From the NCBI RefSeq assembly GCF_014879935.1, contig NZ_JACSRD010000204.1, forward strand, positions 1-60,475: DNA of 60,475 bases, given 5' to 3'. The stretch's first letter is position 1, and each line of letters opens with the position of its first letter. The notes under the pieces are model-generated. The model was not told the origin of the DNA. It saw only the letters and a list, made by a program, of their open reading frames with translations, and searched no databases. Below, in pieces: positions 5,798-45,843 of this stretch. The DNA is from Prosthecobacter sp. GTDB taxonomy: Bacteria > Verrucomicrobiota > Verrucomicrobiia > Verrucomicrobiales > Verrucomicrobiaceae. Both the position numbers and the translations under genes were made by a program.

Positions 5798-8700
5798 ATG
5801 AAAACACTCCGCCGAAACCGCCTCTTCCTCGGATGGTGCATGACCCTGCTCGTCGCCACGCTGCAGATCGCCACGCCTCTGCGAGCCGCGACTTTCTACT
5901 GGGCACCTGATATTGGTTTTGGCCCTGATCCCCAGGAAGGGGGAGACTGGAACACCACCGGCACCAATTGGTGGACCAGCACCAGCTACAACGTGCCCAT
6001 GAGCACCACGTGGACGAGCCCCGGCAATCACACAGCTGTGTTTGGCAGCTTCGGCAGCGGGCCGACGCTGGTGAACCTGCCCGACAGCGTCACTGTGGGA
6101 GCATTGGTGTTCGATGCGGCGGGCGTGAATCTGCAGACATTCTCGGAATTCAACACGCTTACGTTCGCTGGCGCGTCGCCTACGATCACCATCAAGGGGG
6201 ATTCTTTCGCCTTCGACACTGAAGTAGCCATCAACGCTCCGCTCGCCGGAACCAATGGGATCTCGGTTCAGTTTGATGACACTTCATCGTTTGCAGGGCC
6301 AGGTTATGCCGTCCTCAAACTTGGCTCGCTTGGCGCTGGATTTGCCAGCACGCTTGAGGGTGGCATCACGGTGGGGGAGAGGGTGAAACTCGCGGTCGAA
6401 GTGGCTTCCAGTGACCTGAGCAGCAACAAGAATCCACTGGGCACCAATCAAATCACACTTCAGGCCGGGTCGGTTTTCGACATCCGGGGGCTTTCATCCA
6501 CGCCGGATGGACTTTCTGGACGCGTATTCGACACGAGCGGCACTGGTGACAGCAGCCGGGTTGATTTCAGCGGAATTGCCACCGGGGCTTCCCTGCCAGC
6601 AGGTGCATTCTCCGCAGGACTCCCTAACGATCCCACCCATGTGGTGGCGAGTTTGAACGGGAATGCGGCTGCCACCTCCATTCAATACGTGCTGAATGGT
6701 GCCACGAGCACGGCAAGCAGTTACGGCGTGCAGTGGCTGGGCAAGGTAAGCATCGGAACCGCTGGAGCCTATACCTTTTTTGCCAGTGTGGATGATGGGG
6801 CCAGAATCTACATCGATGGCGTCCTTGTGGTGAACAATGATGGTGGCAAGGGAGCCACGGATCTCTCAAGCTCTCCTGTTTTTCTTTCGTCAGGCATGCA
6901 TGACATCCGGATTGATTATGTGCAGGGCTCGGGAGGCGGAAATATCAACCTGGGATACGCGGGTCCGGACACCGACGAAGGCAACGGGCAGATCCGCAAG
7001 GTCATCCCTACCAGCAGTCTCAGCCAGGCAGAAGTCAACACGGCAGCGGGGTCGAGCAACGCTCTGCAATTGAATAACGCGGTTCACATCACAGGTGACG
7101 CGCAGATCAATCTGACGAACACTGAATTCACCTCGGCACAGCTCGGTAGGCTGTTACTCAACACTGGAACGACTCTCTCAGTCGGTGCATACGACCTTGT
7201 CGGCGCACAGATCGTTGGAAACGGAGCAGGATTTGGGAAGACCTTGCGGTTCGGCGGCACGGCTGGCCAACCCACGATCTTTGGCACTCCGGGCTCGGGA
7301 TCGGCAGGAACGGTGACGATCAGTTCGGACGTGAACGTTGCCTTTGACGGCGCGGTTTCTGATGAAGGACGTGCGATGACCATTCAGAAAACCGGCGCAG
7401 GCTGGATGTATTTCAACAACACGACCAGCCTGAACAACCTCAATGCGGGCACAAGCATTGAAATGGTCGGCGTCAATGAGAGCACAGCGGCGCAATTCCT
7501 GTACTTTGAGCCGAATGATTTCGAGATCCAACAGTCAGGGATCGTCATGACTGGCGATACGACGAACCTGGCGGTGGGAATGACTGTGAGCGGCTCTGGT
7601 ATCAAACAGGGTTCAGTTGTCACCAAGATCATTGATGGCACCACGTTCATGGTCTCTGGCAATGCGTCGGCGGCCAATGCATTTGAACAGGTGAACTCTG
7701 CGACGTTGACCTTCAGCAAGACACCAACGCTGGTCCTGACCGGCAGCACAGCAACCGGGGCATTCAACCCAATCGGGTCGGCCCAGATCGTTTTGAATGG
7801 TGGCAACTTGGTCCTGGACTCAAAAGGGGCTACTTCGTCAGGAGGCGGGCCTGTGTTCGCAAATCAGGTGACCGTCAATGAGAACGCAGTGATCCAGTCA
7901 GTCGCGAATGCCTCCACGCTGACATTAGGGGACAGCCTCCATGGGATTGCCATTGCGAGTGGAAAGACCTTGGTGTTGGACGCCATCGCTGGCGGCCGTC
8001 CAAACACGGACCCTGGTGCAAACCTTGTCATCGCGGGAGGAATCACGGGTGATAACACAACCACCCTGATCATTCGTTCCACGCAAAAGAATGCCGGGAC
8101 GACCATCACGGCGGTGAACGCTCTGGCGGATGGCGTGACGCAGCAAATTGGTTTTGCCTCCCAAAGTGGCACGGTGACACTCGCTGGTGATAATGCAGGC
8201 TTCAACGGGACGTTAAGCTTTGAACCGGGCTCCAATCTCCGCCTTGAGGGAGTGGGATCGCTGTCTGGGAAGACCTTCGTGATGGCTGGCGGCACATTGC
8301 AGATGCTCGATGACGGTGATGGCAGCGGAGGCACGCAGAATTTCAATTTCAATCATGCCATCACAGTCACTGGCAATGCCACGCTCGCGGTGGGACGCAC
8401 GGCGAGTTCACAGGCTCCGTATTACATCCAGGCGGCCAACAAGCGGATGCAAATCGCAAGTCTGGCGTCAGGGCGGCAGATTTTGGCCATTGCGAACAAT
8501 AACGGCTACGGGTTGCAGGTCACAGGCGGCACCGCGCTCAGTGGTGCGACCACTTTCACGGTCAACACAGCTACAAATTCCAATGTCCTGCCGGGACTTG
8601 AACTGGCGGGGCAGGTCACTGGTGCCACGAGCATTCTGAAAAACGGCAATGGCACGCTTCTATTGAGCAATGGCTCGAATAGTTTTGGAGGTGCGGTGAA

Positions 8701-11700
8701 CTTCTCCGCGTTGGCTGCAAACATCGCTGGCAATGGAACACTGACTGTCGAAAGCGTGTCCAACTTGGTGGCGGGACAACGAGTCAGTGCCACCAGCCTT
8801 AATGCCGGCACGGTTGTGAACAGCATTAACGTGCAGAACTTCGCAGCCAGCGTCGGAAATGGCGGCACCGTGCTGACCTTGGGAGTCGATCTCAACAACG
8901 TCTTCGTCGTGAACATGCCAGTGTCGGGGACTGGTATCCCAGGAGGGGCCACGGTCACTGCAGTGAACAATAACGTGACGACTCCCACGACAGGTTCTGC
9001 CATTTTCAGTCCGAACTTGGTGACAGTTTCAGACACCAGCAGCTTCCGCGTGGGCATGGCTGTTTCCGGTAATGGGATTCCGGCCGGCACCTACGTAGCG
9101 GAGGTGGTTGATGGAGTCACGCTTCGTCTGAGCCAGAATATCACAGTGGATAATCCGACCTTGGTGAGGAGGCAGGTCACTCTCAGTGCGCCGGTTACGG
9201 TCGATGATCCGACGCTGGTGCTCTCCCAACTGGTGCTGAACCAGGCGGTGGCGTCCTCGGGCACCACTGCCACCACCAGCGCCAACTCGATGATCAACGT
9301 TTCGCAGGGAGTTTTGGCGTTCACCAGTGATGGAGCGCTTGGAAACTCGACCAACCAGATTCTCTCAAACACGAATTCCGCGACAGCCGGGCTTCGTGCA
9401 GACGGGACGTTCGGCACCAGCAGGACATTCATCATGAACCAGGGGAACAATTCCCTTGAGGTCACGGATGGCAACACGCTGACCATGAATGCCGCATTCA
9501 CCTTCACGTCCAGCACTTACAACCTGCAGAAGAATAACCTGGGCACACTTCTTCTTACCCAATCGCAAGGCTCCTGGGGAGGGAATATGACGGTGGGCCA
9601 GGGGGTGTTGCGGATTAGCAATGGAAGCGCCCTTGGCAGCGGCGGTTCCTTCAACCTGTCCAGCGGCGTGGCTTCTGGAGCCACATTGATTGCCAATGTG
9701 GCTGCCGCGCTCGAACTGGCCGGCGGCATCACGGTGTCGGAGGCGTTGGTCTTCCAGCCAGGAAACAACAACACCTCGAATGGCATCAGTGGTGGTGGTG
9801 CGCTGCGCAGCGTGTCTGGCGTCAACGATTGGACTGGCACGATCACTTTCTCGGGTGCTAGTGGTACCGACAGTCAGATGCGTGCCGCGACCATCGGCGT
9901 CGATTCAGGATCGACTCTCAACATCAGTGGGGTGATTACTGGGAGAGTGGGCACGAGTGGCAGCAATCGCGGGGCTTGGTTTGGGCTGGTCGGTGCTGGC
10001 AACGGCACCATTACCACCCCGATGGCCTACACGGGTGATCTCGCTTCTGGCGCCTACTCGTTGGTCAAGGCGGGCACGGGGACATGGACGCTTACATCTG
10101 CCAATGCGTTTCCCGGTCAGAGCATCTACGTTCATCAGGGGAATCTCAAATTGAGCGGAAACGGGACAATTGGTGTGCCTGGAACCAACGGAGGAGCCGG
10201 CATTGTTTACATCATGCCGAGCGGCACGTTAACCCTGGACAACGCGTCAGCTGCGAACGCCAACAATCGCTTCAGCAACCGTGCGCTGACTCTGTATGGA
10301 GGCCGTCTTGACATCACCGGGAACAGTGCCGCCAACACCACGGAGACCACCACTGGTGCTCTGACCTTCAACCCAGGACAGGCTGTCATCACATTGACCG
10401 CGAACGCTTCCAGACAATTAGACATCACCACCGGGCCGGTGACTAGAAACTCTGGTAGCACAGTGTTGATCCGCGGCAGCAATTTGGGCTCAGCTGCAGG
10501 TAACGGAGTCGCCACCATCCAGGCCACGGGCGGAGGTTATGCTTTCATCGGTCAGGCTGGTGCGGCAGGATCGACCAACAAAGCCATTCTCCCCTATGCT
10601 ATCGTCGATCCTTCTGCCACAGGCTTGGGAACCTCATTCGCAACTGCAGACACGGCGAACGGGTTGCTCCGCCCCTTGAATCCAGCCACCGAAATGGTGA
10701 CGACGCTGAGCAACAACCTGGGTGGAGTTGCAACCCCTCTCAATGTCTCATTGTCGGGCGTCGGCTCCGTGAGCAATGCGCTGACCTTGAACACCATTAC
10801 CGTGAATTCGCTGACTTTGAAAAGCGGTGGCGGAACTTCGGCTCAATCGGCCCAGTCTTTGATCCTCGACAGCGGTGGCGTGCTCGCATTCTCCGGCAAT
10901 GTCGGAATTAACGGGGGCCGCCTCTCCACTTTGAGCAATCGTCAGTTCATTTTCCACACTCTGGGTGATTTGAATGTGACGGCGACGATGCATGGTGCCT
11001 CTGGAGGCCTCGCGAAGGCCGGGGCAGGGACGATGACACTCTCGACTCCCCAGTTCTATTCCGGCGTCACTGTGGTCAATGAAGGCACGCTGAAACTCGC
11101 CGGTGGGTCCAACACATTGTTCTACAACAACGATTTTATTCTTCAGGGAGGAATGCTCGACCTCAATGGCACGGCGCAAGTGCTCAGCCGCCTGCGCATT
11201 GATGGAGCTTTTGCTCAGAATGCCAATCTCGTTCCCGGTGCCGGAGGAGGAACGGTCATCAACTCATCTGGAACGGAAGCGACGCTCGGTCTCGTCAATG
11301 CTGGTGTCAACTTCTCAGGCTCAATCTCGGGCGATATCGCATTAGTGCGGTCCACAGCTGCCGACAGCTTCACTGACTGGAACATTTACTCGGCCAACAA
11401 TTTCACCGGCAAGACCATTCTCAATGGTGGACGCACCCAGTTGCTGGGAGAGGCGACTTTTGAAAACACCAGTTCTCTGGAGATCAGTCACGCGACGTTG
11501 TTGATCACCAACAATAACGCCGTGAGCATTCTGGACCAGCAGGTGGACAACCGGATCAATGACACCGCGCCCATCTTGATGCGTGGCGGCATGCTTCAAT
11601 ATCGCGCTCGCAATGGATTCGAAGGCACGGAAGTATTCGGAGCTCTGACTTTGGCGGAAGGTAACAGTATCATTGATGTGGCTGAGCCAGGCACTGGCAT

Positions 11701-14700
11701 CAATAGCTCCACAGCTATCTTCGTCGGCCTGAACCGGCAGGCTGGATCGCACGCCACGCTCCGGTTTTTCAACGTGGATGGCGCCCAGGGCAGTCTGGCT
11801 CGTGTTTTCACCTCCAACCTCAATGGCGTGCCCACAACAAACGTCGGTGACGGCCTCACCAACCACCTCATCGGAGGATGGGCCGTGTTTGAGCGTGAGT
11901 TCGCCAGCTATACGCCAGGAACCGGCGTTGGCGCCCTTAACGGGGTCGGTTATGCAGGCTACTCTCCAAATCTCCTGACTGGCAGGGCAACGGTTCTGTC
12001 GAGTTCCACTTCAACCAACACAGCCCAGGTTTCCACTGTGCCGGCCGGACTTGTTGTCGGCAGTGCATTCCTGGGTTCCACGGTGACGTCGATCAATGGC
12101 ACCACTGTCACACTTGCGGGCAATGCCAATGCGGACATCAGCGCTCCGACAAGTCTCTTTTTCAACAACGGTTCGGATTCGGAGAACATGCGGATCACTT
12201 TCCCTGGTGTGGCTTCGGTGGGAGCGGTCGGGGAGAACCTGCTCACCATTGCCAGCACCGCTGGTCTGACAGTGGGTGATTCTGTTCTTGGCACCGGCAT
12301 TCCTGCCAACGCCAAGGTGGCGTCGATCATCAGCGACACCCAGTTCACTATCACGCAGACCCTTGGGACCGCGAATCCGACGCTGACTCTGCCCCAAACG
12401 ATGGCGCTGACGGGGGACCGCACGATCAACAGTCTCGCGATGGTGGTTTCAGGCAATTCAACGCTGGACCTGGGTGGTTTCACCCTGAATCTGACCAGCG
12501 GCGGCTTGATAGCCTCACAGGGCTTCAGCACCACCAATACGCAGGTCACGGTGGTGAACAGTTCCACAAGCAGCAACGTCATCACTCTTGCGAGCGTTCC
12601 GCAGAACTTCGTCGTGGGATCCACTGTGCTGGGCAGAACGGTCACGGCTATCAACGGACTCGAGGCTACTCTTGACGGCAATGCCAACGCCACCAGCAGC
12701 TCGCCGACTGGGCGAGATTACGTCAGCGCCCTCTACATGCCGATCACCATTCAGAACGGGAATCTAACCGCCGGAGGCACCCCGAACGCTGCGGCGGATC
12801 TCTATTTGCATGCGATTGGATATGTGAACGGAAACACCAATGTGCAGAATCGTGACGTCTTTGTGGGTGCCAACATCGTGGACAATGGTGCGGGGGCAGT
12901 GACCCTTGTCATCAATGGCACGGAAGGTCGTGGCAGCTTCGCTGGCATCAGTGATTTCCGCACCAACGAACTGGTGCTCAGCGGCAACAACACTTATTCG
13001 GGCGGAACGTTCGTGAACTCCGGCTTTGTCGTTCTCAATTCCCCGGGGCAGGCATTCGGCACAGGAAATGTCACGATCACAGGTGGGGCGAGCACGAACG
13101 GAGCGACTTTCCAGGAACGCACGACCACGGTCGTTTTGGGAGCATCAAACCAGATCGCCAGCACAGCCACTCTGACGATGCTGGGGGGCTCCGCCCTCGA
13201 GTTGAACGGGTTCAATCAAACCTTGGGCAACCTGGTCTTTGACAACACTGGCGGCAACACACCGATCCTGCATGTCGGTCCGGGTAAGCTGACCTTGGGG
13301 ACGGTGCCATTGAATGGCAACATCACGGCGACATCCTCCAGTCTTGGCGGTGTGTCACTCATCAGCACTGGTTCAATGTATTCCCGTGTGGTCACGGGTT
13401 CAAGCACAGTGACCGTGGGAAGCACGGCTGGCTTGGCGGTGGGAACAGCAGTGACGGGCAGTGGAATCGCTGCTGGAACGGTGATCACGGCAATCAATGA
13501 CGGAACGACCATCACATTGTCGGCACCTGCGACCGCCAATGGAAACAACCTCCTTTCATTCGGTGGACTGGGTGCGATCGACCTGGGTGGCTCCACGCGC
13601 ACGTTCAACGTCTCGGCGGTCACAGCCAATGGGGTCAACATCGCCCCCTTGCAGCCGACACTTAACATCACAGGGGTGATGATTGGTGCGGCTGGAATCA
13701 ACAAGACGGGCGATGGATTGCTTCAACTCGGCGGAGCAAGCACCTACTCGGGCGGATTGAATGTGCAGGCCGGCGGCATTGTTTTTGGCGGCAGCAGCAG
13801 TTTCAACAATGGGACCCTTGGTGGCGTCTCCGCCGGTCCAGCCGGCACTGGCGTTTTGACACTGGCCGCGAACACCCGCCTGCTTTCGAGCGGCAATTTC
13901 GTTGTTGGCAACGATGCCATCGCGGCTGGCAATCTGTCGTTCGACAGCACGGTTGCTGCTGGCACAAACCTCACGCTGAGCGGAACCGTCACCCTGCCCG
14001 GGACACTGACGATCGATGTGGTCAATCCCGGAATGACCGCTGCACTGGGCACAGTTACCAAGCAGGGAGGGCCCGGAGCGATCTCCATCACCAAAACAGG
14101 GCTGGGAACATTGGCCTTGGGCGCTTTGGATTCGGGCAATACTGTGGCAGTGAACCTTAACGCAGGTAATATCGCCCTGTTGCACGACGGCAACGGCACG
14201 GGTGCCATGGAGACGATTGCAACCGGCATCACATTGAATCCAAGTGGTGCTGTCAATCTGACCATTGGACGGCTGGGAAGCACCTACGCGCCATTGTTCA
14301 CCACTGCTTCGAACAAGACGCTCCAGATGGCGGCTTTCGCCCTGAACGGGCCGCTGGCAATCACCAATAACCATGGTCACGGGCTCGAACTGACGGGTCC
14401 GGCTACTTTGGGCAGCAATCAGATCATCAGCGTCTCAACTGCCACCACTTCGAATGCGGTGCAGGGCCTGACCTTCTCCGGCCCGCTGGGTGGCAGCTCG
14501 TCCATCACAAAGATGGGAAATGGCACCCTCGCACTCAACGGAACCAACACCTTCACCGGAAACATTGACATCCAGGGCGGGGTGCTTGCAGTGGACAGTG
14601 ATGCTGCATTGGGTAATGCGGCCAATCAGGTGATCTTGAACGTGAATGCGGCGACGGGAGTCGGCCTCCGCGCCACCGGGACTTTTGCCACGAGCCGCAC

Positions 14701-17700
14701 GATCCAGTTGAACCGAGCCAGCAACGCCATTGAAGTGGTCGCAGGGGAAGTGCTCACTCTCAATTCATCGTTTGTCTTGGGAGCTGTGAACAATGCCCTG
14801 CGGAAAAATGACAACGGCACGTTGGTGATGGCTGCTGCCAACAGTTCCTGGACGGGGGGGCTCACCATCGGGGCTGGTGTCGTGAGAATCACAAACGCCA
14901 GTGCGCTTGGAACAACTGCGGGTAACACAGTGGTCAGCGGCACCGGAGCTGCCTTGCAACTGGGTGCTGTCACCACGGCCGAGCCGGTTACCTTGAACGG
15001 CGCAGGCATCAATGGTGCGGGCGCCCTCCAAGCCTTCTCGGGTAGCAGCACAGTCAGTGGCACGGTGACTCTTGGATCTGCCACCACCATCGGTGCCGAC
15101 GCCGGAACCACGCTGAATCTCACTGGAACGCTCAGCAGCGGTCAGGCGCTGACCTTTACCGGCGCCGGCGCGATCAACAAAACCACCACGGGATTTGGCG
15201 CGGTGGCCTCAATAACCAAGCAAGGGAGTGGCACTTTCACACTCGGGGTGAACAGCACATCGTTCACCGGAGCTCTTGTGGTCAATGAAGGTGTGTTTGC
15301 CATGAACGCTGGTGCCACGATCGGAGGAACCAGCACGATCTCGGTGCAGGGACCTTCCGGGGCGCTTAACTGGCTTGGCGGCCTGGATCACACGACGAGT
15401 GCACGACCGCTGACATTAACCGGCGGCACATTCAATATCTCTGGCGGCACCGGTTCCAGTGAAAACCTTGGCATTCTGACCCTTAACCGAAGCCGGACGA
15501 ATATCATCGACTTCAGTCCTGGCGGAACAACGAACACCCTGACATTCGCGAGTTTGACCCTTAATGGCGATGCTTCGATCATCTTCTCCGGCTCGAATAT
15601 CGGCAACGCCAGCAGCAGAATCGTGTTCACGACAGCTCCAGGGCTCACGAACAATCTGCTGCAACGGGCGACGTTCAACGGCACCGATTTCGTCTCCTAT
15701 AATCACAACGGCACGGCATCGAACACGAATGGCATTCAGGCGTTCACTGGTTATAATACCTCCAACAGCATTGACAGCCTTGCCGCGACCACGAACGCGA
15801 CGATGAACATCACCGCGACACCTGTGTTCGCAGGCACAACCAATCGCACAGCCAACGCCATCAAGATCAACGGCACCGGAATCAACATCGGCAACGGCAT
15901 CACCACACAAGGCGCGACCCTCACACTGACCGCTGGAGCTGTCTTGAATGTCGGCGGCAACAATACAATCAGCGTGCCAAGACTTGCATTGGGTGCCGAG
16001 GGCTACATGGCGGTCGCCTCCAGCACCACTTTGACTGTTAACAGCCTCCTGAGCGGGGCATCTGGTTTTGTCAAGGATCTGCCCGGAACCTTGATCCTGA
16101 ACGCCCCTGGCAATCGTGCGGGACTGGCCAACATCAGCGGCCAGATATTGACCGGCAATTTTGCCATCAATGCAGGAACCGTGAAGCTGGGAGGTGGAAA
16201 CAACACTTTGACTCCCAACCAGTTCATGCTGATTGCCCCAGGTGCCACCCTTGACCTCAACGGCACCACACAATTTGTTTTGGGCACCCGAGGCGACGGC
16301 GGCGCGTTGGCTGGCAATGCAGGCACGATCACCAGCTCAGGAGGAGCAGCCTCCATCATTTTGGGTAACGAGGGGACGACGATCAGTTGGGGCGGCAAGA
16401 TCACCGGCAACGTGGCATTTTTGAAGAGCAGTTCAGGTCTTATCAATTTCCTGGCAGACAGTGATCATACGGGGCCGACAGTATTCACAGGAGGCAACAA
16501 TTACCTAGTGGACGGCGGCAGGCTCTCGCAGACAAGCTCCATCGCGGTGAATTATGCCCTCTTCCGCCTGGATGACAGTCTCAATTACGTGACTTCCGAT
16601 CGCGTAAACATTAATGCAGACATCACATTGCGCGGCGGCAGCTTGGTCTATCAAGGGCGACTCCAAAGTGATGTGAGTCAAAGCGTGGGCCATGTTTCGC
16701 TGAACGAAGGTTACAATATGATCCAGACGGCGATGTCGTTTTTTAGCACCACCAGTGGTGGCACCACGACCCTTAACAGTCCTGCAAGTATCGCCAGCAC
16801 GACCTTGAACCTAGCCTCTCTAAGTCGTTCAGCGGGGTCAACAGCGACAGTTCGTTTCCCAGACAATCGCCAGGATCTCGTCGGATTGACCGCAGCTATT
16901 CGTATAGCCACTTTGAACGGTGTTGATACAACGACTGGCACTGTCGGGGCGGGTCTCACCAACAACCTCATAGGGCCATGGGCAGTGGTTGACCGTGAAT
17001 TCGCCAGCTACGTCCCAGACGTCGGCGTCGGCAGACTGAACCAAACAGGCTTCGCTGGCTATTCGGCTAACTCACTTACGGGTTTGGGGAGCTCCGCACC
17101 GCAGGCAACAGACAATATCCGTGCCACGGGTAATGTGGGTCCCCTGTTCAACAACACCACCGTAAACACCTTTGCGCTTGTAAATCCTGGAGCGGCACAG
17201 ACAACTGTGAATCTGGGCGGCTTCCAGCTCACCCTTCAAGGGGGAGGTTTGCTCCTCGCGCACAGCGGCGACAACCGCAACATCACTGTCACCAATGGTG
17301 CCATCACCAGTGGTGTTGTTAACAGTGCCAGCGACCTTTATGTACATGCCTTGCCTTACGGTGGAGTGAACCGCACTGCGATTATCGATGCATCAATCGT
17401 CAACAATGGCACGGGCCCTGTGCGTCTGGTGTTCTCCGGCAGCGATGGCGCGGCCAATCTCACGCTGAATGGTACTAACACTTACAGCGGAGGAACAGTG
17501 GTCAACGGCGGGGTGCTGATCATCGGAGCTACTGGCAACGTTGGAGCCGGGAACATCACGATCAACGGTGGTTTCAACTCAGGCAGTGGCATTCTGGTCC
17601 AGCGGGCGGGTGGTGTCATTGACATCAGCAAGACCGGCTCGATCACTAATGGAAACACCATGGTGACCGGCATCGACACGTCGAATTTGGTGGTCGGACA

Positions 17701-38059: not shown

Positions 38060-38093
38060 TAGCGCTTGGTAGATTCTGCCGTTTTGATGGCGG

Positions 38094-38107
38094 TTTGTAA
38101 TTACAAA
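38094..38107. promoter_or_regulatory. Perfect 14-bp palindrome upstream of cassette gene A promoter
   Basis: TTTGTAATTACAAA is fully self-complementary. It lies 9 nt upstream of the -35-like TTGAGC in the 119-nt gap between the giant gene and cassette gene A. Its position suits a dimeric regulator site. No copy is seen upstream of the giant gene. Confidence 0.4.
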
Positions 38108-38116
38108 ATAAATACC

Positions 38117-38157
38117 TTGAGCTTTGCAAAGAGATTTCGTAGCATCGCTTAAATTCA
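38117..38157 (+). promoter_or_regulatory. Promoter-like element of cassette gene A, shared with the giant gene
   Basis: TTGAGC (38117-38122), a 17-nt spacer and TAGCAT (38140-38145) read as a promoter. Positions 38135-38157 (TTTCGTAGCAT, then TAAA and TCA) match 19 of 23 positions of 5616-5638. The predicted start is about 25 nt before the gene A ATG. It suggests that the giant gene and the A-D operon are transcribed separately but under common control. Confidence 0.55.
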
Positions 38158-38178
38158 CGAAATTGAAGTTCTGACATT

Positions 38179-41100
38179 ATGAAAGCCATTCAACTCACTT
38201 CGACAGGCTCAAAACGTCGCAAAGCGATGGCTCTGGTGATGGTTGTGACAACCGTCGCCCTCATCTCGATGTTGATCGTAGCAATTTTTTCGCTGACGCG
38301 AACGGAGTACAAAGCCACCCAGAATTTTGTTGCTGCGCGTTCAGCCAAACAGTTGGCGGATTTCGCGGTCGCCATCACCCAAGCGCAGTTGCAGAATGCA
38401 CAGAACACCGCGACCACAGCTGCCTCGCGAACGATCCATGCGACGCAACCCGGGATGGCTCGAGTTTATAACGCAATTGGTAATTTCGTCCGCGCCCACA
38501 AGCTTTACTCGAGTTCTCAAATGGTCGTTACCAGTGGCAGCGAAGCGGAAATTTTCAGCTCCGCCCATCAGGTGCCATCGGATTGGAATGCCCCCAACAA
38601 CAAAGCTAGATATGTTGACCTCAATGAGCCTGTCATTCGTCCGGCGCTGACTGGGGGAACGACGGCGCTCTTTTTCCCGATCATCGATCCCAGGGCTGCT
38701 TACACCGGAAACTCGCCTGTATCCGGTGAAAAGCTGGTAGCAGTAGAGGGTTTTGAATATGATAATAAAACACCGTCCGTGGGTGGCGCTTCCGTCACCT
38801 ATAATGAGGTCGTCACACCGTCGGCTGCAGGCAGTGACCCTGACAAGATGAGGCTGCCCATGCCTGTGGAGTGGATCTACATTCTGCAAGATGGCACCAC
38901 GGGTGCTTTGGATGGCAGCAATAATTTTATCAGCTCCCAACCCAGCAAACAACCTTCGTCAGCAAATCCCATCGTTGGGCGTGTCGCGTTCTGGACTGAT
39001 GATGAGTCCTGCAAGGTCAACATCAACACAGCTTCGGAGCCCACTTTCTTCTCCCCTCCATACTTTTACCATCAGCGTGATTCCAAGTGGGCCAACTTCC
39101 CTCCAGCATCAGCAGAATACCAACGTTACCCAGGTCATCCCGCCACCGTGGCATTGAGCGCCGTTCTTGCTCCTGGAATCAGCCTCGACCCTTTTGCTCC
39201 AGGATTGGCCAAGTCAGCGATCAACAACATAGTCCAGACCAAGGAGTTGATTTACCGCTTGATGCCTAAAGTGGCTTCAGGTGGGTCCATGTCTGGTACA
39301 CGCCCGTTCATGACAGACGAGTTCTCATCTTCGAATGGTGAGGAGCAGCCGGCCACCAATGGTGATGCGGTTAACGCTAGGAAGGAGCGTCTGTTTGCCA
39401 GTGTGGATGAAATGTTGTTCCAAGATGATCTGGACGGCGGCAACTACAGCGGTTCCCAAGGTCGTATTGCCGCTCGGGTCGCGATTCCAGGCGACACTAC
39501 TCGATATCTGATGGGGCGTGACACACTTGAAAGGTCTCGCTTCTTTCTCACGGCGCACAGCCGGGCACCCGAGTTCAGCATTTATGGGCTTCCTCGGGTG
39601 GCCATGTGGCCAGTGGCTGACGAGGGACAGGGGGCGACCAAGCGCACCAGCTTTGATAACATGATTGCACTCTGCGCCACCATCGGCGGAGGCAAAACTG
39701 GGGCTACCATTGCGAATAGTTACATCTTCCGCCGGGCGGAGCCGCACAGCGGAAGTTACGACGTCAGCGGCTCGGCCAGTGGCTATGGAACATCTCAGGG
39801 TTTGGCCCGTAACTCCAATTTGCTGAATTATCTCTATGCGCAAATGACCGGCCTGCAGTTTCCGCGGACATCGTCGTTGGGCAGCAGTGGAGACTTTGGT
39901 GCGAAGTATGGAACTGCTAACGCCGCACAGCTAGCCGTACAGTTTTTTGACTACATCCGTTGCACCAACCTTTACGATGGCCTTTTGGCCCGTGACAATG
40001 ATGCCTCCAGCATTCTCGATGTTAATGGCAACATTTCGCCGACGGGCACGGCCTTGTATGACAAACGGGACGATCTCACCAGCAGCCGCTACACCTACAC
40101 TGAACAGCGGGGCACGACAAAGGCCAGCGGCGGCACGAGGTCGGGCTCCAGCTACAGGCAGGGCAATAACGTCCTGTCGGACAGTACTGGAGTGCTACCG
40201 GGTCATGGCCAAGTAACTCCTGCTCGCTGGCAAAAGGGCAGTCAAGTGTATCAGGGGCTTGGCCGGATGTTCACCATTTCCGAGGTTGGTTTTCAGATCA
40301 TCTGCACCGCTGATGGAAAGAACGATGAACGATATCCGGTCAACTGCGGAGGCATCCTTAGTGGTGGTGGGAGTGCTCCCATGGCAACGTCTCCCAGGGC
40401 CTCGAATGAGGGGGATGGGAATGCAGCACCAGAGTTCTTAACCGCGTCGTATCCGCCAGGCACCAACACGCTTGGATTTAGGCGGTGGTACTCCAATTTC
40501 CCCCCTCTCACCCCCCCGTATAAAGACAGTGCGGGCAAATATTACTACGGCTGCGATCCAGACGATCCGACAAGCCAGAAGCACCCGTCACGTCACCCAG
40601 GCTACAATCCGAAGAATTGGAATCTTACGTTGCTTCCCAACACGCCACTTACAACGAACCAGAAACGCATTCAAGTGATGCTCATGCTGGAAACATTCTG
40701 TCCTATGTTAGGATGGACCAAGTTTCACCCGGAATGGGCCATTGAACTCGATGATCAGTTCATTCGTTCGATCAAAGTTCGCGACGTTGCGGGCAATGAT
40801 GTGCCTCTTTTCCCAACCACACGACCCGTCATCATAAAATCGAACACAAACCTCTACGAATTCAGCAATGTTTATTCTTTGGGGGGGCATGCTGGACCCA
40901 GCTCCATGTCGGGTGGCCGCTCGGTTCCCGGTTGGGGAAGCTCGCAAATTGGTGATGACACTGATCCATATTTGGATGGCAACGCTCGAAACTCTACGGG
41001 AAACAGGTACATGCAGCCCGACAATCCCGGGCATACCGGATTGAATAATTATGGTTTGGTCAGTCAGTTTGTGACCGTTCCTCGTTCCGGCCCCATAGTA

Positions 41101-43254
41101 CTCACTTTCGGTTCTCGTGACCTAAAAATTAAGATTTATGACAAGCATGAGAGAGCCGGTCGCAGCGGTGAGGAAGTTCAGACCATCAATTTATCCTTTG
41201 ACAATATGTCGCTTCCAGCTCCTGCATTGGTCTACTCGGGTGAGCGTCGCCGTGGTGGGCAACCTCAGAGCGACCCTGTCAATCGTAACGAAATCAATCA
41301 CTGGTGGACGACCAACGCGGCCGGCCAACTTACTTGGAGACGCTCCCTCCAGGGACCACACTGGTGGTGCTTTAATCGCATGGGCTGCCTCGGCAGAATG
41401 CAAGGCAACGTCAATCCAGGTTATCGGACTTCGGATCCTCCAAGTTCACTATACGCCACAACTCCGTCGTTTGATCAGACTTTCGACGGCGCAGATGACC
41501 AACTACTGCATGGTCGGCTTGATACTGCGACGAGTTTCGGCGGCCCCGGTAACGGCGGCGGGAATGTTGGAATTGGAGTCATACCGATTGAAGCAACAGA
41601 GCAGTTGACAGACGAGCAAGGCCGTCCCTGGAGTGGAAGCGATGTCATCCGCACGTATGTCCCTGCGGTTGGAGATTATCGTCTGATTGCAGCTCGACGT
41701 GATGTTCCTAACTCGATGTGGATGAAACATCCTGTCTGGCAAGCGATTGACAATCTCTCCCCCGCCAACCAGCCTCGCAACATTCACACATTCACCACGC
41801 ATTCGGCTGGTGGTGAAGCTGGCTGCGTCCTTCCCACATCATCGATGCGGGTAACGACATCGGCCTTCTATAACTACGTCAAGAACAGCCCTTTCCTGGT
41901 TAAAGACGTGCCGTATGGCGATGATCGCATCCCTGATCTTCCCCCGTCGGACGCTTGGGCTGCGGTAGCGAACAGTTACGGCGACTTTGACAATGGCATT
42001 GGCAACTCGCGGGACGGCGCCTACATTAACAAACCAGATGAAGGCAATTTCCATGCCGCAGAATTTACCCGTCATGGTGTGAAAAAGTTCTACCGTTCCG
42101 GCTATTTCTATGAGCCTTGGCGAAACAGTGATGACTGGCGCAGCGGTGTTTACATGACACCCAATCGCATGGTGTCGTCACCGGTCATGTTTGGTTCTCT
42201 GCCGACTGGAATTTGGGGGGGAGGAAGTGTCAACACCAATGCGGTGAGCGGCAGTGGTGTTGCATACAATACCAACACGGATGGTAAACCTTGGCAGACA
42301 TTGCTGTTTCGTCCATACGCTCGTTCTCATTCGACGCTGGGAAAACCAGTTTCCACTGGCCATCCAGGCGACAACAATCCGCGTGATCACTACCTCCTGG
42401 ACATGTTTTGCATGCCGGTGGTTGAGCCTTATGCCATCAGCGAACCGCTGTCGGTCGCTGGGCGCCTCAACCTCAATTACCAGATCATGCCCTTTACCCA
42501 CATCACCCGCGCCACTGGCATGCATGCGCTGATGAAAGGGGAATTCATGACCGCCATACCTACTAACGATGTCAACAACGCCAAATCCCACCAGACTGCG
42601 GCCACGGCAGCCATGTGGGGCAGCACGGGAGATCGTTTTTGGGATGAGAGTTCAAATCGCAAGTTCTGGCATCGTCCTATTGATGTCACACGGACACTTT
42701 ACCAATTTGAACAGAAGTTTCTTCACAAAGCCACGGGGGCCAACCATGCGGCGGGTCGCTATAATGGCTTGTTCCGGAGTGCCAGTCAAATTTGCGAGAT
42801 CCACCTGATCCCAGACGTCAAGGCAGGGGCATCTTCTAACGGAGAGAATATCAGCGGTATTTCCAACATTAGTGAAAACACGGCTACCACGACGATTCAG
42901 ACCATTATGGATCAGTTCTGGCAGAACCACTCTTCCACAGGTGACAATACGCGTGAACGGCCCTATTCGAACCTTTACAACCGTGTGACTACGCGCGGGA
43001 ATACCTTCCGCGTTCACATGCGTGCCCAGGTGGTTCGCAAAGCTCGCTCCACTCCCTCCAATACTTTCGATCCGGTCAAGGATGCTGTGTTGGGTGAGTA
43101 CCGCGGTTCAACTCTTATCGAGCGCTACATCGATCCGACGGATGTCACCACTCCGATTCCCGATTATGCAGCCTCCACGAACCCGCTTGGGCAAGCTCCG
43201 CTCGACACGTTCTACCGGTTCCGCACGCTTGAGAGCAAGCGTTTCAGCCCTTGA
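38179..43254 (+). CDS. Verru_Chthon cassette protein A (GspK-like large minor pseudopilin)
   Basis: The 1,691-residue protein has a basic N-terminus and a single hydrophobic helix (KAMALVMVVTTVALISMLIVAIFSL, about residues 15-40) without a Glu at mature position 5. This is the pattern of GspK-type pseudopilins. Residues 271-285 (FWTDDESCKVNINTAS) echo the 'vNiNtA' segment of GspK. By size, N-terminus and gene order it is cassette protein A (TIGR02600), a family restricted to Verrucomicrobia-type genomes with no assigned biochemistry. The rest is a large extracytoplasmic domain rich in Ser, Asn, Tyr and Trp, with many polar loops. It is the first gene of an A-B-C-D operon; gene B follows at once and may even overlap (TGATG). 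Family membership is recalled from memory; the GspK analogy is my inference. Confidence 0.85.
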   Translation: MKAIQLTSTGSKRRKAMALVMVVTTVALISMLIVAIFSLTRTEYKATQNFVAARSAKQLADFAVAITQAQLQNAQNTATTAASRTIHATQPGMARVYNAIGNFVRAHKLYSSSQMVVTSGSEAEIFSSAHQVPSDWNAPNNKARYVDLNEPVIRPALTGGTTALFFPIIDPRAAYTGNSPVSGEKLVAVEGFEYDNKTPSVGGASVTYNEVVTPSAAGSDPDKMRLPMPVEWIYILQDGTTGALDGSNNFISSQPSKQPSSANPIVGRVAFWTDDESCKVNINTASEPTFFSPPYFYHQRDSKWANFPPASAEYQRYPGHPATVALSAVLAPGISLDPFAPGLAKSAINNIVQTKELIYRLMPKVASGGSMSGTRPFMTDEFSSSNGEEQPATNGDAVNARKERLFASVDEMLFQDDLDGGNYSGSQGRIAARVAIPGDTTRYLMGRDTLERSRFFLTAHSRAPEFSIYGLPRVAMWPVADEGQGATKRTSFDNMIALCATIGGGKTGATIANSYIFRRAEPHSGSYDVSGSASGYGTSQGLARNSNLLNYLYAQMTGLQFPRTSSLGSSGDFGAKYGTANAAQLAVQFFDYIRCTNLYDGLLARDNDASSILDVNGNISPTGTALYDKRDDLTSSRYTYTEQRGTTKASGGTRSGSSYRQGNNVLSDSTGVLPGHGQVTPARWQKGSQVYQGLGRMFTISEVGFQIICTADGKNDERYPVNCGGILSGGGSAPMATSPRASNEGDGNAAPEFLTASYPPGTNTLGFRRWYSNFPPLTPPYKDSAGKYYYGCDPDDPTSQKHPSRHPGYNPKNWNLTLLPNTPLTTNQKRIQVMLMLETFCPMLGWTKFHPEWAIELDDQFIRSIKVRDVAGNDVPLFPTTRPVIIKSNTNLYEFSNVYSLGGHAGPSSMSGGRSVPGWGSSQIGDDTDPYLDGNARNSTGNRYMQPDNPGHTGLNNYGLVSQFVTVPRSGPIVLTFGSRDLKIKIYDKHERAGRSGEEVQTINLSFDNMSLPAPALVYSGERRRGGQPQSDPVNRNEINHWWTTNAAGQLTWRRSLQGPHWWCFNRMGCLGRMQGNVNPGYRTSDPPSSLYATTPSFDQTFDGADDQLLHGRLDTATSFGGPGNGGGNVGIGVIPIEATEQLTDEQGRPWSGSDVIRTYVPAVGDYRLIAARRDVPNSMWMKHPVWQAIDNLSPANQPRNIHTFTTHSAGGEAGCVLPTSSMRVTTSAFYNYVKNSPFLVKDVPYGDDRIPDLPPSDAWAAVANSYGDFDNGIGNSRDGAYINKPDEGNFHAAEFTRHGVKKFYRSGYFYEPWRNSDDWRSGVYMTPNRMVSSPVMFGSLPTGIWGGGSVNTNAVSGSGVAYNTNTDGKPWQTLLFRPYARSHSTLGKPVSTGHPGDNNPRDHYLLDMFCMPVVEPYAISEPLSVAGRLNLNYQIMPFTHITRATGMHALMKGEFMTAIPTNDVNNAKSHQTAATAAMWGSTGDRFWDESSNRKFWHRPIDVTRTLYQFEQKFLHKATGANHAAGRYNGLFRSASQICEIHLIPDVKAGASSNGENISGISNISENTATTTIQTIMDQFWQNHSSTGDNTRERPYSNLYNRVTTRGNTFRVHMRAQVVRKARSTPSNTFDPVKDAVLGEYRGSTLIERYIDPTDVTTPIPDYAASTNPLGQAPLDTFYRFRTLESKRFSP

Positions 43255-43286
43255 TGACCTGCCTACTAACTCCAACAGGGAATGGA

Positions 43287-43766
43287 ATGATCATGAAACA
43301 GCCAAGACTGGTATCATCACAATCGGGTGGTTTCTCGCTTGTGGAAGTCACCCTCGCGGTGGCGATTGCAGCGCTAGCCATAATCACGCTTCTTGGCCTG
43401 CTTCCTCAGGGCCTGGAAATGTCTCGAAAAACCGCGCTGATCACCACAAACAGCAACATATTGGAGCAGATTTCTCGTGATTTGGACAATGCCCGCTTCT
43501 CCTTGCTGCCCACATCAGCTGTTAAAAAGTATTATAATGATCAGGGGGCTGAGGTGTCTGCGGACTCCACAGAGATCGTATATGTCGTTGAGATTGATCC
43601 TGAGACAGCAACTCCGGCGTCATTGCCTCAAGCTGAGAAAGATCAGCCGTATCTCAAAAAATATGTCATCAGGATTGCCAATTCGAGCAGTTCGGACTTC
43701 GACTTCGACTCCGGAAGTCCTCTTCGATACACCACTTTCAACCACTTGGTCGCCAAAACTCGCTGA
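43287..43766 (+). CDS. Verru_Chthon cassette protein B (GspI-like prepilin-type protein)
   Basis: This short protein (159 residues) has a class III prepilin leader ending in Gly15, then FSLVE with Glu at mature position 5. A hydrophobic helix (VTLAVAIAALAIITLLGLLP) and a small extracytoplasmic domain follow. It fits cassette protein B (TIGR02598) and resembles the minor pseudopilin GspI in length and sequence style. The frame is open back to 43251, and an ATG at 43254 overlaps the gene A stop (TGATG). ATG 43287 is preferred because AGGGA sits 5 nt upstream and the leader is then of normal length; ATG 43293 is also possible. Expected processing is by a prepilin peptidase, with the helix packing into a pseudopilus. 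Confidence 0.85.
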   Translation: MIMKQPRLVSSQSGGFSLVEVTLAVAIAALAIITLLGLLPQGLEMSRKTALITTNSNILEQISRDLDNARFSLLPTSAVKKYYNDQGAEVSADSTEIVYVVEIDPETATPASLPQAEKDQPYLKKYVIRIANSSSSDFDFDSGSPLRYTTFNHLVAKTR

Positions 43767-43775
43767 TACTCTGCC

Positions 43776-44987
43776 ATGATTTGCCGACTTGCCATCCGCC
43801 GTCGCTCCCGCCTCGATCTGTCTGAGGAGGGATTTACGCTTATCGAGTTACTCGTCTCGATGACCTTTTTGGTGATCTTGATGCTTGTGGTTACCCAGGT
43901 TGTCGGAATTGTTCAGCGCACTTGGGTGCGTTCGAATTCTCGTGTGTCCCAATTCCGGGAAGCCCGAACAGCATTTGATGTTCTGACGCGTAATCTGTCG
44001 CAGGCCACGTTGAACACTTACTGGGACAACGAATTTGATCCTTTGCGTACTGACGCAGCCGGGCAGGCCGTTACCCGCGCCAAGAACTATGTTCGGCAAT
44101 CTGAGTTACAATTCATTTGCGGCCCCACAACGGAGGTTTTGGACGCTGCGGCAGGCCAGGTTTCCAATTTTCCAGGTCACGCCGTTTTTTTCCAGGCACC
44201 ATTGGGAGTGACTCGCCTGACGCCCGTTGGGGCCTCTACTGCCAGCACTGTTGCCAACACGGAGAACATGGTGAATTTGTTGTGTGGTCGAGGATACTTT
44301 GTCGAATGGGGAGACGATGCTCCGTATCGACCTGCATTCTTGAACCAACTGAGTTCGGTGCCGACGAGAAGTCGCCTTCGATTGATGGAGTACAGCCCTA
44401 CAGCGGAGATGAATCGCATCTATGACTCTACGTTGAGGCCCCTCGTAGATTCATCGGTTAATAACGGGGGGCGGTGGTTTAACGAAGGTACTTCTGCCGC
44501 GCTGAGTAGCCGGGTGACAACCTCAGAAACGACCGCAACCCGTGCCTTCACCCGGCCGATTGCAGAAAATATTCTGGCTTTAGTGATTTCCCCCCAGACC
44601 GAAACGATAGGCAGCACGACTCCAGCCTATTCGATTGCGCCAAATTACTTGTATGATTCGACGTTGACGGTGAACCCTGGTGCGACCGCTAATTCAGTCA
44701 ATCCGCAAGGCACACAACATTTGCTGCCACCTCTTCTCAAAGTAACGATGATTGCATTGGATGAGAGGTCAGGTGAGTTTCTGTCGCGGCAGGAGAACGA
44801 GTCGATGCGTAGTAGCGTGCTCTCCTCCACTGGAGGGTTTTTCCGAAGCGCAGCGAGTTTCAATCAAGAAGTGCTAGGAACCAGCGACCAGCCAGCGGCG
44901 TTGACCTCGCTTCTTCAGGCGCAAAAACTTAACTTCAGGGTTTTTACGACCACAATCGCTCTCAAGCAAGCCCGCTGGAGCTACTGA
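43776..44987 (+). CDS. Verru_Chthon cassette protein C (GspJ-like prepilin-type protein)
   Basis: The 403-residue product has a basic leader ending in Gly19, then FTLIELLVSMTFLVILMLVV with Glu at mature position 5, followed by QRTWVRSNSRVSQFREARTAFDVLTRNLSQATL. This is the N-terminal arrangement of GspJ-type minor pseudopilins (helix, then an R-x-A-F-xxLxxxLxQA segment). It fits cassette protein C (TIGR02599). It starts 9 nt after gene B. The large C-terminal domain has no catalytic motif I can recognise. It presumably joins A, B and D in a pseudopilus tip-like assembly in the periplasm. Confidence 0.87.
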   Translation: MICRLAIRRRSRLDLSEEGFTLIELLVSMTFLVILMLVVTQVVGIVQRTWVRSNSRVSQFREARTAFDVLTRNLSQATLNTYWDNEFDPLRTDAAGQAVTRAKNYVRQSELQFICGPTTEVLDAAAGQVSNFPGHAVFFQAPLGVTRLTPVGASTASTVANTENMVNLLCGRGYFVEWGDDAPYRPAFLNQLSSVPTRSRLRLMEYSPTAEMNRIYDSTLRPLVDSSVNNGGRWFNEGTSAALSSRVTTSETTATRAFTRPIAENILALVISPQTETIGSTTPAYSIAPNYLYDSTLTVNPGATANSVNPQGTQHLLPPLLKVTMIALDERSGEFLSRQENESMRSSVLSSTGGFFRSAASFNQEVLGTSDQPAALTSLLQAQKLNFRVFTTTIALKQARWSY

Positions 44988-45023
44988 ACGGTTGGACTTT
45001 ACATTTAGCACGAAGCACCTCTC

Positions 45024-45746
45024 ATGACTCGTTTGTCGTTCATTCGCAAAAAGAGCCGGCTGGCATTTACCCTGATCGAAATGCTTGTTGTGGTCACAAT
45101 CATTGTGCTCCTGCTGGCCTTCTCCACACCTGCTCTGATGAAGACATTGCAATCCAGTAGGCTGTCATCGACAGGGGACACCTTGCTCGGTGCAATCTCG
45201 GAAGCCCAGCAACTCGCATTTGCTCAGGGTGTCCCGGTCGAACTGCGTTTTTTCAGCTACAGTGGGGATTTCGCCGATGATTCGCCAATGTTTAGATCTT
45301 ACCAAATGCTCAAGGTTGAGACAAAAGTAGAGGGAACTGGCACGGCCCTGAAAATCAGTGAATCAATGGTCCCCGCCGGGAACCTGACGAAGTTTGCTGA
45401 AGGAATTGTCATTCCAGTGGACGACGAGTTGTCGAAGGCATTATCTGGCGATCAACTGGAAGATACCAAGAATGGGGCTACTCCTGGGTATTCCGGGGTT
45501 TCCGGGGCAAAGTTCTGTGCCATTCGATTCATGCCTGACGGGACTTGCCGGAAAGTTGGCGCAACGACTAGTTCGGATGGCGTGACCCAGGCTGTATTGA
45601 CCTTTCAGACGCTTTCGGAGAGTTTTTTCACGATCACTTACGATATCGGTGCGACAATTAATGTGGGCAACCTCCCCAAAAACTTCTACACGATCCAGAT
45701 CGACCCGTTCACCGGGAAGGCGCGGAACTACAAACCGGGTTTCTGA
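45024..45746 (+). CDS. Verru_Chthon cassette protein D (GspH-like prepilin-type protein)
   Basis: The 240-residue product has a basic leader, then FTLIEMLVVVTIIVLLLAFSTPALMKTL. The downstream stretch (GDTLLGAISEAQQLAFAQGVPVELRFF) parallels the GspH pattern of a helix followed by an ARxxAIxxgxpVxL strand. It fits cassette protein D (TIGR02596) and ends the operon, 36 nt after gene C. The residue before the cleavage site is Ala14 where almost all type IV prepilin-like proteins have Gly; Glu19 (mature +5) is present. The following 97 nt before guaB contain no clear terminator. Confidence 0.87.
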   Translation: MTRLSFIRKKSRLAFTLIEMLVVVTIIVLLLAFSTPALMKTLQSSRLSSTGDTLLGAISEAQQLAFAQGVPVELRFFSYSGDFADDSPMFRSYQMLKVETKVEGTGTALKISESMVPAGNLTKFAEGIVIPVDDELSKALSGDQLEDTKNGATPGYSGVSGAKFCAIRFMPDGTCRKVGATTSSDGVTQAVLTFQTLSESFFTITYDIGATINVGNLPKNFYTIQIDPFTGKARNYKPGF

Positions 45747-45843
45747 GTGCTGGTTTGAAGCCAATTCGCTGCTGCGGATCCCGGAGGCCGCACATCAAAC
45801 AACTTTCCGCATGACAGTCGCCTGATCGCCGCTTACCTGCGAC

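Follow-up and report, generated by a model that had tools for sequence, protein, structure and literature searches.

The window analysed here is a single contig of 60,475 bp (C134) from a draft Verrucomicrobiota genome of 7.74 Mb. Our subject is a stretch on its plus strand in which a giant gene is followed by a four-gene cassette, A to D. The giant gene (5798–38059, +) is an open frame for a secreted beta-strand-repeat (PATR) protein of 10,753 amino acids (aa), with TIGR02601/PATR repeats, one PA14 domain, and a PEP-CTERM tail. After a gap of ∼120 bp, A (38179–43254, +) encodes a candidate GspK-like minor pseudopilin of enlarged size (1,691 aa); it is followed by the candidate GspI-like B (43293–43766, +), GspJ-like C (43776–44987, +; 403 aa), and GspH-like D (45024–45746, +; 240 aa), whose end at 45746 is also the end of the feature. 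The open reading frame (ORF) of B opens with a TTG codon at 43251; in our judgment, the ATG at 43293 is the more likely start. All four proteins pass the curated NCBIfam cut-offs of the Verru_Chthon families: A scores 1121 bits against a cut-off of 332 (TIGR02600), B 88.5 against 51.4 (TIGR02598), C 357 against 256.5 (TIGR02599), and D 99 against 70 (TIGR02596). The original prediction, which described a 32-kb repeat-protein gene followed by genes A–D, is thus confirmed.

The N-terminus of the giant, judged by eye, is signal-peptide-like. Profile scans were run on two 4,800-aa pieces, with the 1,153 aa between them outside the scan, and found 11 and 10 stretches of TIGR02601 repeats in the two pieces; Pfam likewise recognizes PATR and PA14. 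At the DNA level these repeats are degenerate, and Tandem Repeats Finder returned two rows, both for a single short array. The PEP-CTERM motif at the C-terminus (37982–38053, +) consists of VPEP, a hydrophobic stretch, and RRRRR, and is matched by both TIGR02595 (24.5 bits, cut-off 16) and PF07589 (21.3, cut-off 20.7). With this motif present and exosortases in the genome, the giant qualifies as a PEP-CTERM protein. We also considered a type V autotransporter, and ruled it out because no Pfam match to an autotransporter beta-barrel was found in the C-terminal 4,800 aa.

The cassette proteins have the N-termini that had been predicted for them. Prepilin motifs with Glu at +5 are present in B, C, and D of the window, and A lacks this residue. 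The same pattern extends across our survey, in which Glu+5 was seen in 0 of 49 A proteins (one further row was gapped), 54 of 54 B, 67 of 67 C, and 60 of 60 D, the B–D rows having been chosen with a motif that requires Glu there. Six rows excluded from this count for other reasons (five B and one D) also carry it. Fragments aside, the surveyed A proteins are ∼1,180–1,840 aa long, compared with 307 positions in the GspK model. They share a motif, GRVAFWTDDESCKVNINTA (38977–39033, + in the window), that is mostly invariant in 10 A proteins and largely so in 50, and that resembles what we take to be a GspK motif. Similarity to named secretion models is low: A matches the GspK model NF037980 at 16.5 bits (cut-off 130, E 0.0048), C matches GspJ TIGR01711 at 25.9 bits (cut-off 64.85, E 7e-6), D matches GspH TIGR01708 at 29.2 bits (cut-off 80, E 8e-7), and B shows a weak, N-terminal XpsI/GspI similarity (XpsI, E 0.0028, far under its cut-off). 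These matches to Gsp/Xps models lie mostly over the N-terminal helix. D also matches, over 70 columns, the H-position protein of a type II secretion system (T2SS)-type operon in this genome. Sequence searches of solved structures returned nothing with the A profile, and only pilin N-termini or chance rows with the profiles of C, D, and B.

Predicted folds go further for two of the four proteins. For A, we folded a homologue of 1,178 aa from locus L038, 38% identical to the A of the window, with an alignment of 50; the model has a predicted local distance difference test score (pLDDT) of 82 and a predicted template-modelling score (pTM) of 0.86. VIA-align, from which both the GspK and the GspJ matches come, placed GspK (3ci0_K) first for this model, with Z 9.9 and a root-mean-square deviation of 3.1 over 246 of 280 residues; the next row had Z 5.4. 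The first and last aligned model residues are 42 and 1178, so the GspK fold seems to be spread across the whole of A, with ∼900 residues added within it. C2/YEATS-like rows for residues 411–867 of A (Z 3.8–5.4) were weak, and we do not regard them as meaningful. The model of the window's own C (pLDDT 90, pTM 0.85) gave ten rows with Z 9.9–11.0, the next being at 2.4. These ten are entries for EpsI:EpsJ, XcpVW(X), XcpW, GspK-I-J, and the XcpGHIJK pseudopilus model, together with two of Thermus TTHA1219. Some of the matched chains are labelled J or W; the remaining chains are presumably the J subunit. Excerpts of one study place TTHA1219 closest to XcpW/GspJ (PMC5131608). The absence of Glu5 is described, in excerpts of another, as common to GspK and the pilus protein PilX (PMC7541494), so this residue cannot separate the two; the predicted fold does. 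The predicted correspondence of A, B, C, and D to K, I, J, and H is therefore largely supported for A and C, by the modelled folds of a homologue and of C itself, while B as GspI-like and D as GspH-like are suggested by weak, mostly N-terminal sequence matches. A thus resembles GspK by predicted fold yet is not filed as GspK.

The link between cassette and giant was surveyed in 90 loci: the window, nine others, and the best 80 of 261 relatives, all from Verrucomicrobiota groups, with genes labelled from profiles. Eight loci without a readable upstream flank were dropped (L073, L085, L086, L089, L127, and L131, which are A-first or have A only, and L104 and L119, of other gene order). Among A-first cassettes with a readable flank, 45 of 55 touch a PATR/PEP-CTERM or giant-family gene. 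In 28 cases this gene lies upstream and carries PEP-CTERM (one is fused to A, L033, and in L032 and L130 no PATR was found), in 13 it lies upstream and lacks PEP-CTERM, and in four it lies downstream (L069, L072, L076, L090). As a control, PATR/PEP genes made up 20 of 528 other genes of the same loci, and 3 of 528 were at least 1,500 aa long; these control genes are the longest open frames, some probably spurious, and include the giant of L040. Fisher's test of the pairing gives p 3e-7, in a calculation that ignores relatedness. In a quick tree of A that carries a long-branch warning (78 labelled rows), pairing was gained or lost at least 12 times, and a finer division into states gives at least 19 changes.

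Some of these assignments depend on short flanks. The automated score was 37 of 55, and eight pairs were added by hand: L040 (giant upstream), L033 (fusion), and L065, L077, L078, L079, L095, and L096, whose tails are homologous to those of other giants lacking PEP-CTERM. The giant-family frames of L065, L077, L079, L095, and L096 meet the contig end after 581–1,208 aa and belong to the family by tail, not by size; for most other giants, the sequence read covers the last 3,100–3,300 aa, up to where the stretch stops. The A-first label comes from contigs that break off within A or shortly beyond it in L096, L101, L103, L107, L111, and L118, and it stands without recognized B–D in L123 and L130. 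In L066, A and the upstream PATR gene are both split over several frames. The 13 upstream proteins without PEP-CTERM share a C-terminal region of ∼450 aa, found in L065, L068, L077, L078, L079, L082, L083, and L095 and likewise in L096, L099, L101, L102, and L111; it is possibly an alternative anchor.

One recurrent genomic site lets the composition of the cassette be compared with the type of giant. The gene guaB lies downstream of D in 22 of 81 loci compared, the window included. At this site, 14 of 15 cassettes of the ABCD type have a PEP-CTERM giant, and six of seven of the ACD type have a giant-family gene without PEP-CTERM, the seventh (L089) being without a readable flank. Cassette type and giant type differ together here. 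In ACD loci the gap between A and C is 15–38 bp in all eight measured (L065, L068, L082, L083, L089, L095, L099, L102), and B, the GspI-like member, is therefore absent from these cassettes. B is present in L078 and L079 beside a giant-family gene without PEP-CTERM; thus, loss of B does not strictly track giant type. In L097 the frames of the giant and A overlap by a few bases, and in L033 (3957–10181) a PATR protein runs in frame through its PEP-CTERM tail into A; counted from its first start codon, this frame spans 2,074 aa. Since one draft genome shows this fusion, a stop codon lost by sequencing error is possible. If the fusion is real, its topology makes sense, as the PEP-CTERM helix would have its end on the cytoplasmic side, where prepilin peptidase could separate A.

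Within the window, no GspD/E/F/G-like gene was recognized in the overlapping sets of 8 and 9 proteins scanned, which cover the small ORFs in part; a T2SS locus with GspD, E, F, and G in cis is not found among these proteins, and such genes lie elsewhere in the genome. This genome contains 13 strong T2SSE-family matches, 10 secretin matches (nine over cut-off), and three exosortases, and its contig C75 holds a T2SS-type operon, separate from the cassette, with pseudopilins of its own. The operon comprises GspE-like, GspF-like, GspG, GspH-like, and GspI-like genes, a pseudopilin at the J position with no family match, and a GspK-like gene; GspG is the sole member above its cut-off. We note separately that L070 has a gene starting MPKTLIIAEKPSVAADLARALAKAP directly upstream of its cassette, and that a gene with a near-identical start lies ∼2 kb before the T2SS-type operon in the window's genome (L141).

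More broadly, A was above its cut-off in three of 144 Verrucomicrobiota genomes of at least 90% completeness, sampled across the phylum: this one (two copies), G066, and G078 (at least four each in the latter two, where up to four candidates were scored). Matches to the A profile at E 0.001 or better occur in 81 of the 144, nearly all of the others through the first ∼60 residues. Core genes were sought in 31 cassette genomes (three, and a further 28 that carry 29 of the 80 loci), and GspE in this genome only. The expected co-occurrence of cassettes with core Gsp genes was supported: T2SSF is present in 30 of the 31 and secretin in 31 of 31, so that in 30 of them the cassette does not occur independently of GspF. 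Exosortase was found in 29 of 31.

A comparable arrangement appears in a more distant family. G045, a 4.1-Mb genome that belongs to the same class but to a different family, has ∼17 places (L176–L192) with divergent GspK-like proteins of ∼950–1,470 aa. A profile built from 15 of these places matches A over its first 72 columns, and 11 of the 15 match the GspK model, the best at 4e-6. Of 17 such loci, 12 include a PATR/PEP-CTERM gene, compared with 2 of 17 control stretches (p 0.0013), where the control stretches were hand-placed along the same genome and spanned 12 kb against test flanks of ∼13 kb. The large-K gene of L190 was missed by the gene caller, and L190 was counted as a locus without a PATR/PEP gene. 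Among hand-picked large-K neighbours, for which there is no control, 10 of 19 match carbohydrate-active families, namely polysaccharide lyase, deacetylase, trehalase, GH5, GH16, GH31, GH125, and SASA esterase. Excerpts of a report on Verruconatronum mention at least 67 homologues of the pulG-like pseudopilin of its alginate-gene region (PMC13274419).

Giants are more numerous than cassettes in the window's genome. With 150 of 392 candidate frames scored, which makes the totals lower bounds, it has at least 10 PATR open frames of at least 3,000 aa (10,778, 9,075, 8,523, 6,282, 5,908, 5,460, 4,774, 4,418, 3,985, and 3,168 aa). A cassette lies beside two of them. The other eight, of 3,168–9,075 aa, are on C21, C73, C182, C194, C200, and C284, and six have a PEP-CTERM end; one (C194) fills its contig and has no readable flank. 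The flanks read around the remaining seven hold no A–D homologue. A giant PEP-CTERM fibre thus needs no cassette next door, dedicated export of every giant PATR protein is rejected, and the proposed tie of the cassette to giants in general does not hold, although the cassette could act in trans on other giants.

We propose that A–D together make up a full set of minor pseudopilins (K, I, J, and H) with a greatly enlarged K and with no major pseudopilin, ATPase, platform, or secretin; of their identity as minor pseudopilins we are highly confident. The set would form an alternative tip, assembled by a T2SS or type-IV-filament machine encoded elsewhere in the genome. Tip sets that lack a machine of their own fit a swappable tip for a shared one, and we judge such use probable. 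The giant would then be exported by Sec, after which the oversized K would engage it and the tip would drive it to the outer membrane or across it; a giant that carries PEP-CTERM would also be processed by exosortase. That the giant is the cognate cargo or partner of its cassette is a plausible suggestion that we make tentatively. Taken whole, a swappable tip for a shared machine, with the neighbouring giant as its cargo or partner, is the most likely explanation among those considered, and we hold it with corresponding caution. Precedents exist for its parts. In excerpts of a T2SS study, GspH-I-J-K form the tip of the pseudopilus and are critical for substrate recognition, with I-J as the indispensable core (PMC6211770). 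In Myxococcus, as excerpted, three minor-pilin/PilY1 clusters serve one pilus machine, and the authors suggest that PilY1 is an analogue of T2SS substrates (PMC7541494). A wider generalization, more speculative still, is that one or a few type II-like machines in Verrucomicrobiota use many interchangeable tips and that what they secrete is set by the tip in use. In its full form, multi-copy cassettes would each have an enlarged GspK with a cargo-specific domain of at least 900 residues and evolve with their own giant fibre or, in other lineages, with secreted enzymes.

Several observations weigh against a tip dedicated to the adjacent giant. In the window, a terminator-like hairpin found by hairpin search (38076–38093, +) separates the giant from A; nine terminator-like sites were found in 37700–45900 compared with 8.3 ± 3.2 in shuffled sequences, which is not above chance. 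Ten of the 55 A-first cassettes have no PATR/PEP-CTERM or giant-family neighbour, L070 has guaB and a cassette with no giant, and among the cassettes that begin with B, C, or D a PEP-CTERM/PATR neighbour occurs in 6 of 27, none of them giant. The expected association of cassettes with giant PATR/PEP-CTERM genes is therefore seen in the A-first group and not in general, and part of the family does occur independently of giants. The seven giants with no cassette in the flanks read point the same way. ACD cassettes lack their own I, which would need another source. Exosortase was not found in two cassette genomes; they carry L080 and L081, and neither of these cassettes lies next to a PEP-CTERM gene. 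T2SSF was not found in one assembly of unstated completeness (G159, of L081). The folded A (L038) stems from a cassette without a giant neighbour, and Foldseek alone gave no significant match for A or C (probability 0.11 for A). According to excerpts of PMC6211770, Pseudomonas mutants in GspK (XcpX) and GspH (XcpU) still secrete and those in GspI and GspJ do not, a result that argues against K alone choosing the cargo. Finally, the loci are related, and contrasts of gene order gave too few pairs for a test on independent pairs.

This relatedness would fit a reading of the adjacency as lineage-specific synteny without functional coupling, in which a few ancestral loci were inherited vertically. 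Many of the 45 paired loci are orthologues, as guaB at 22 of 81 loci indicates, and most A-first rows fall in one 47-row clade of the A tree. Against this, the pairing recurs in a separate clade of L032, L033, and L128, with the fusion in L033 and short gaps in L032 and L128, the PATR gene changes sides, lying upstream in most loci and downstream in four, and a similar enrichment is seen in the divergent G045 family. We consider synteny alone improbable; the pairing is real but lineage-bound. A looser kind of coupling would have the cassette serve a shared T2SS as an alternative tip of general use; its cargo would be broad or unknown, and the giant would be one item among many. Most of the giant frames listed in this genome have no cassette, the G045 large-K genes also lie beside carbohydrate-active enzymes in the uncontrolled sample of 10 of 19, and cassettes of other gene order have mixed neighbours, all of which such a tip would accommodate. 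However, 45 of 55 A-first cassettes touch a PATR/PEP or giant-family gene, which is more specific than a general tip requires, and we regard this reading as a minority possibility.

The cassette might instead export nothing and form an adhesin complex at the tip of a filament resembling a type IV pilus. The enlarged K would itself be the adhesin, and the giant a separate surface adhesin that neighbours it as both act in attachment. The ∼900 residues of the folded A beyond the GspK fold would give room for an adhesin head, cassettes do occur without giants, and the minor pilins of type IVa pili with their tip adhesin PilY1 offer a precedent, one in which PilX, according to excerpts of PMC7541494, is likewise without Glu5. 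Yet the predicted fold of A is that of GspK, Pfam scans of A and of two pieces of the giant (1,153 aa lying outside the scan) reported nothing like a PilY1 domain, and the joint change of giant type and cassette type at one site is left unexplained. We regard an adhesin complex, too, as a minority possibility, and prefer the swappable tip with the giant as its candidate cargo or partner.

The surroundings of the locus can be described briefly. On the 3′ side of D, profile scans of window proteins identified an inosine monophosphate (IMP) dehydrogenase gene and a gene resembling guanosine monophosphate (GMP) synthase. G+C content is 0.57 and 0.53 over the giant plus cassette against 0.63–0.64; recent transfer as the cause was set aside, the drop being clear in the window and small or absent in several relatives. 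Farther along are a KAP NTPase gene (50410–53199; PF07693) with weak QatA similarity (62 bits, cut-off 600) and a gene for a protein with a BlaR1-like N-terminal part (55772–59377; 119.6 bits, cut-off 400).

To our knowledge, how the T2SS chooses its substrates is still an open question. If tips have been duplicated beside their presumed cargo, deletion of a single small cassette would put tip–cargo specificity to the test. Families that had a name but no stated function gain a structural identity, and our results suggest an outer-membrane route for fibres of more than 10,000 residues for which the search for an autotransporter barrel was negative. Our literature searches found no published work on the Verru_Chthon cassette or its four TIGR families, although absence from the literature searched is not absence in print. 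The parts are of known kinds; their combination, with a giant K, machine-less multi-copy tip cassettes, and repeated pairing with giant fibres, was not found described in that literature.

It is useful to contrast this arrangement with the systems it most resembles. The window genes are themselves members of the Verru_Chthon cassette families A–D (TIGR02600, 02598, 02599, 02596), whose model names state no function; we add a predicted fold for two of the proteins and a genomic context for the cassette. With PEP-CTERM/exosortase and PATR (autotransporter-associated) proteins, the giant shares the PATR repeats, the PEP-CTERM tail, and the exosortases in the genome, but it reaches 10,753 aa, has no autotransporter barrel that we could find, and lies beside pseudopilin genes. 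The minor pilin/PilY1 clusters of Myxococcus xanthus, as far as excerpts of PMC7541494 describe them, are similar in that several tip clusters serve one machine and the minor-pilin genes are accompanied by one for a large partner protein; they differ in belonging to a type IVa pilus with PilX/PilY1 rather than to a giant K with a PATR fibre. A further likeness is to the T2SS minor pseudopilin tip GspH-I-J-K (XcpUVWX; PDB 3ci0, 5vtm), which has four subunits, the same Glu+5 pattern, and the folds predicted here for K and J. Relative to that tip, the cassette has an A of ∼1,180–1,840 aa where the GspK model has 307 positions, stands with no G, E, F, or D recognized in cis, is multi-copy within genomes, and lies next to a gene for a giant fibre.

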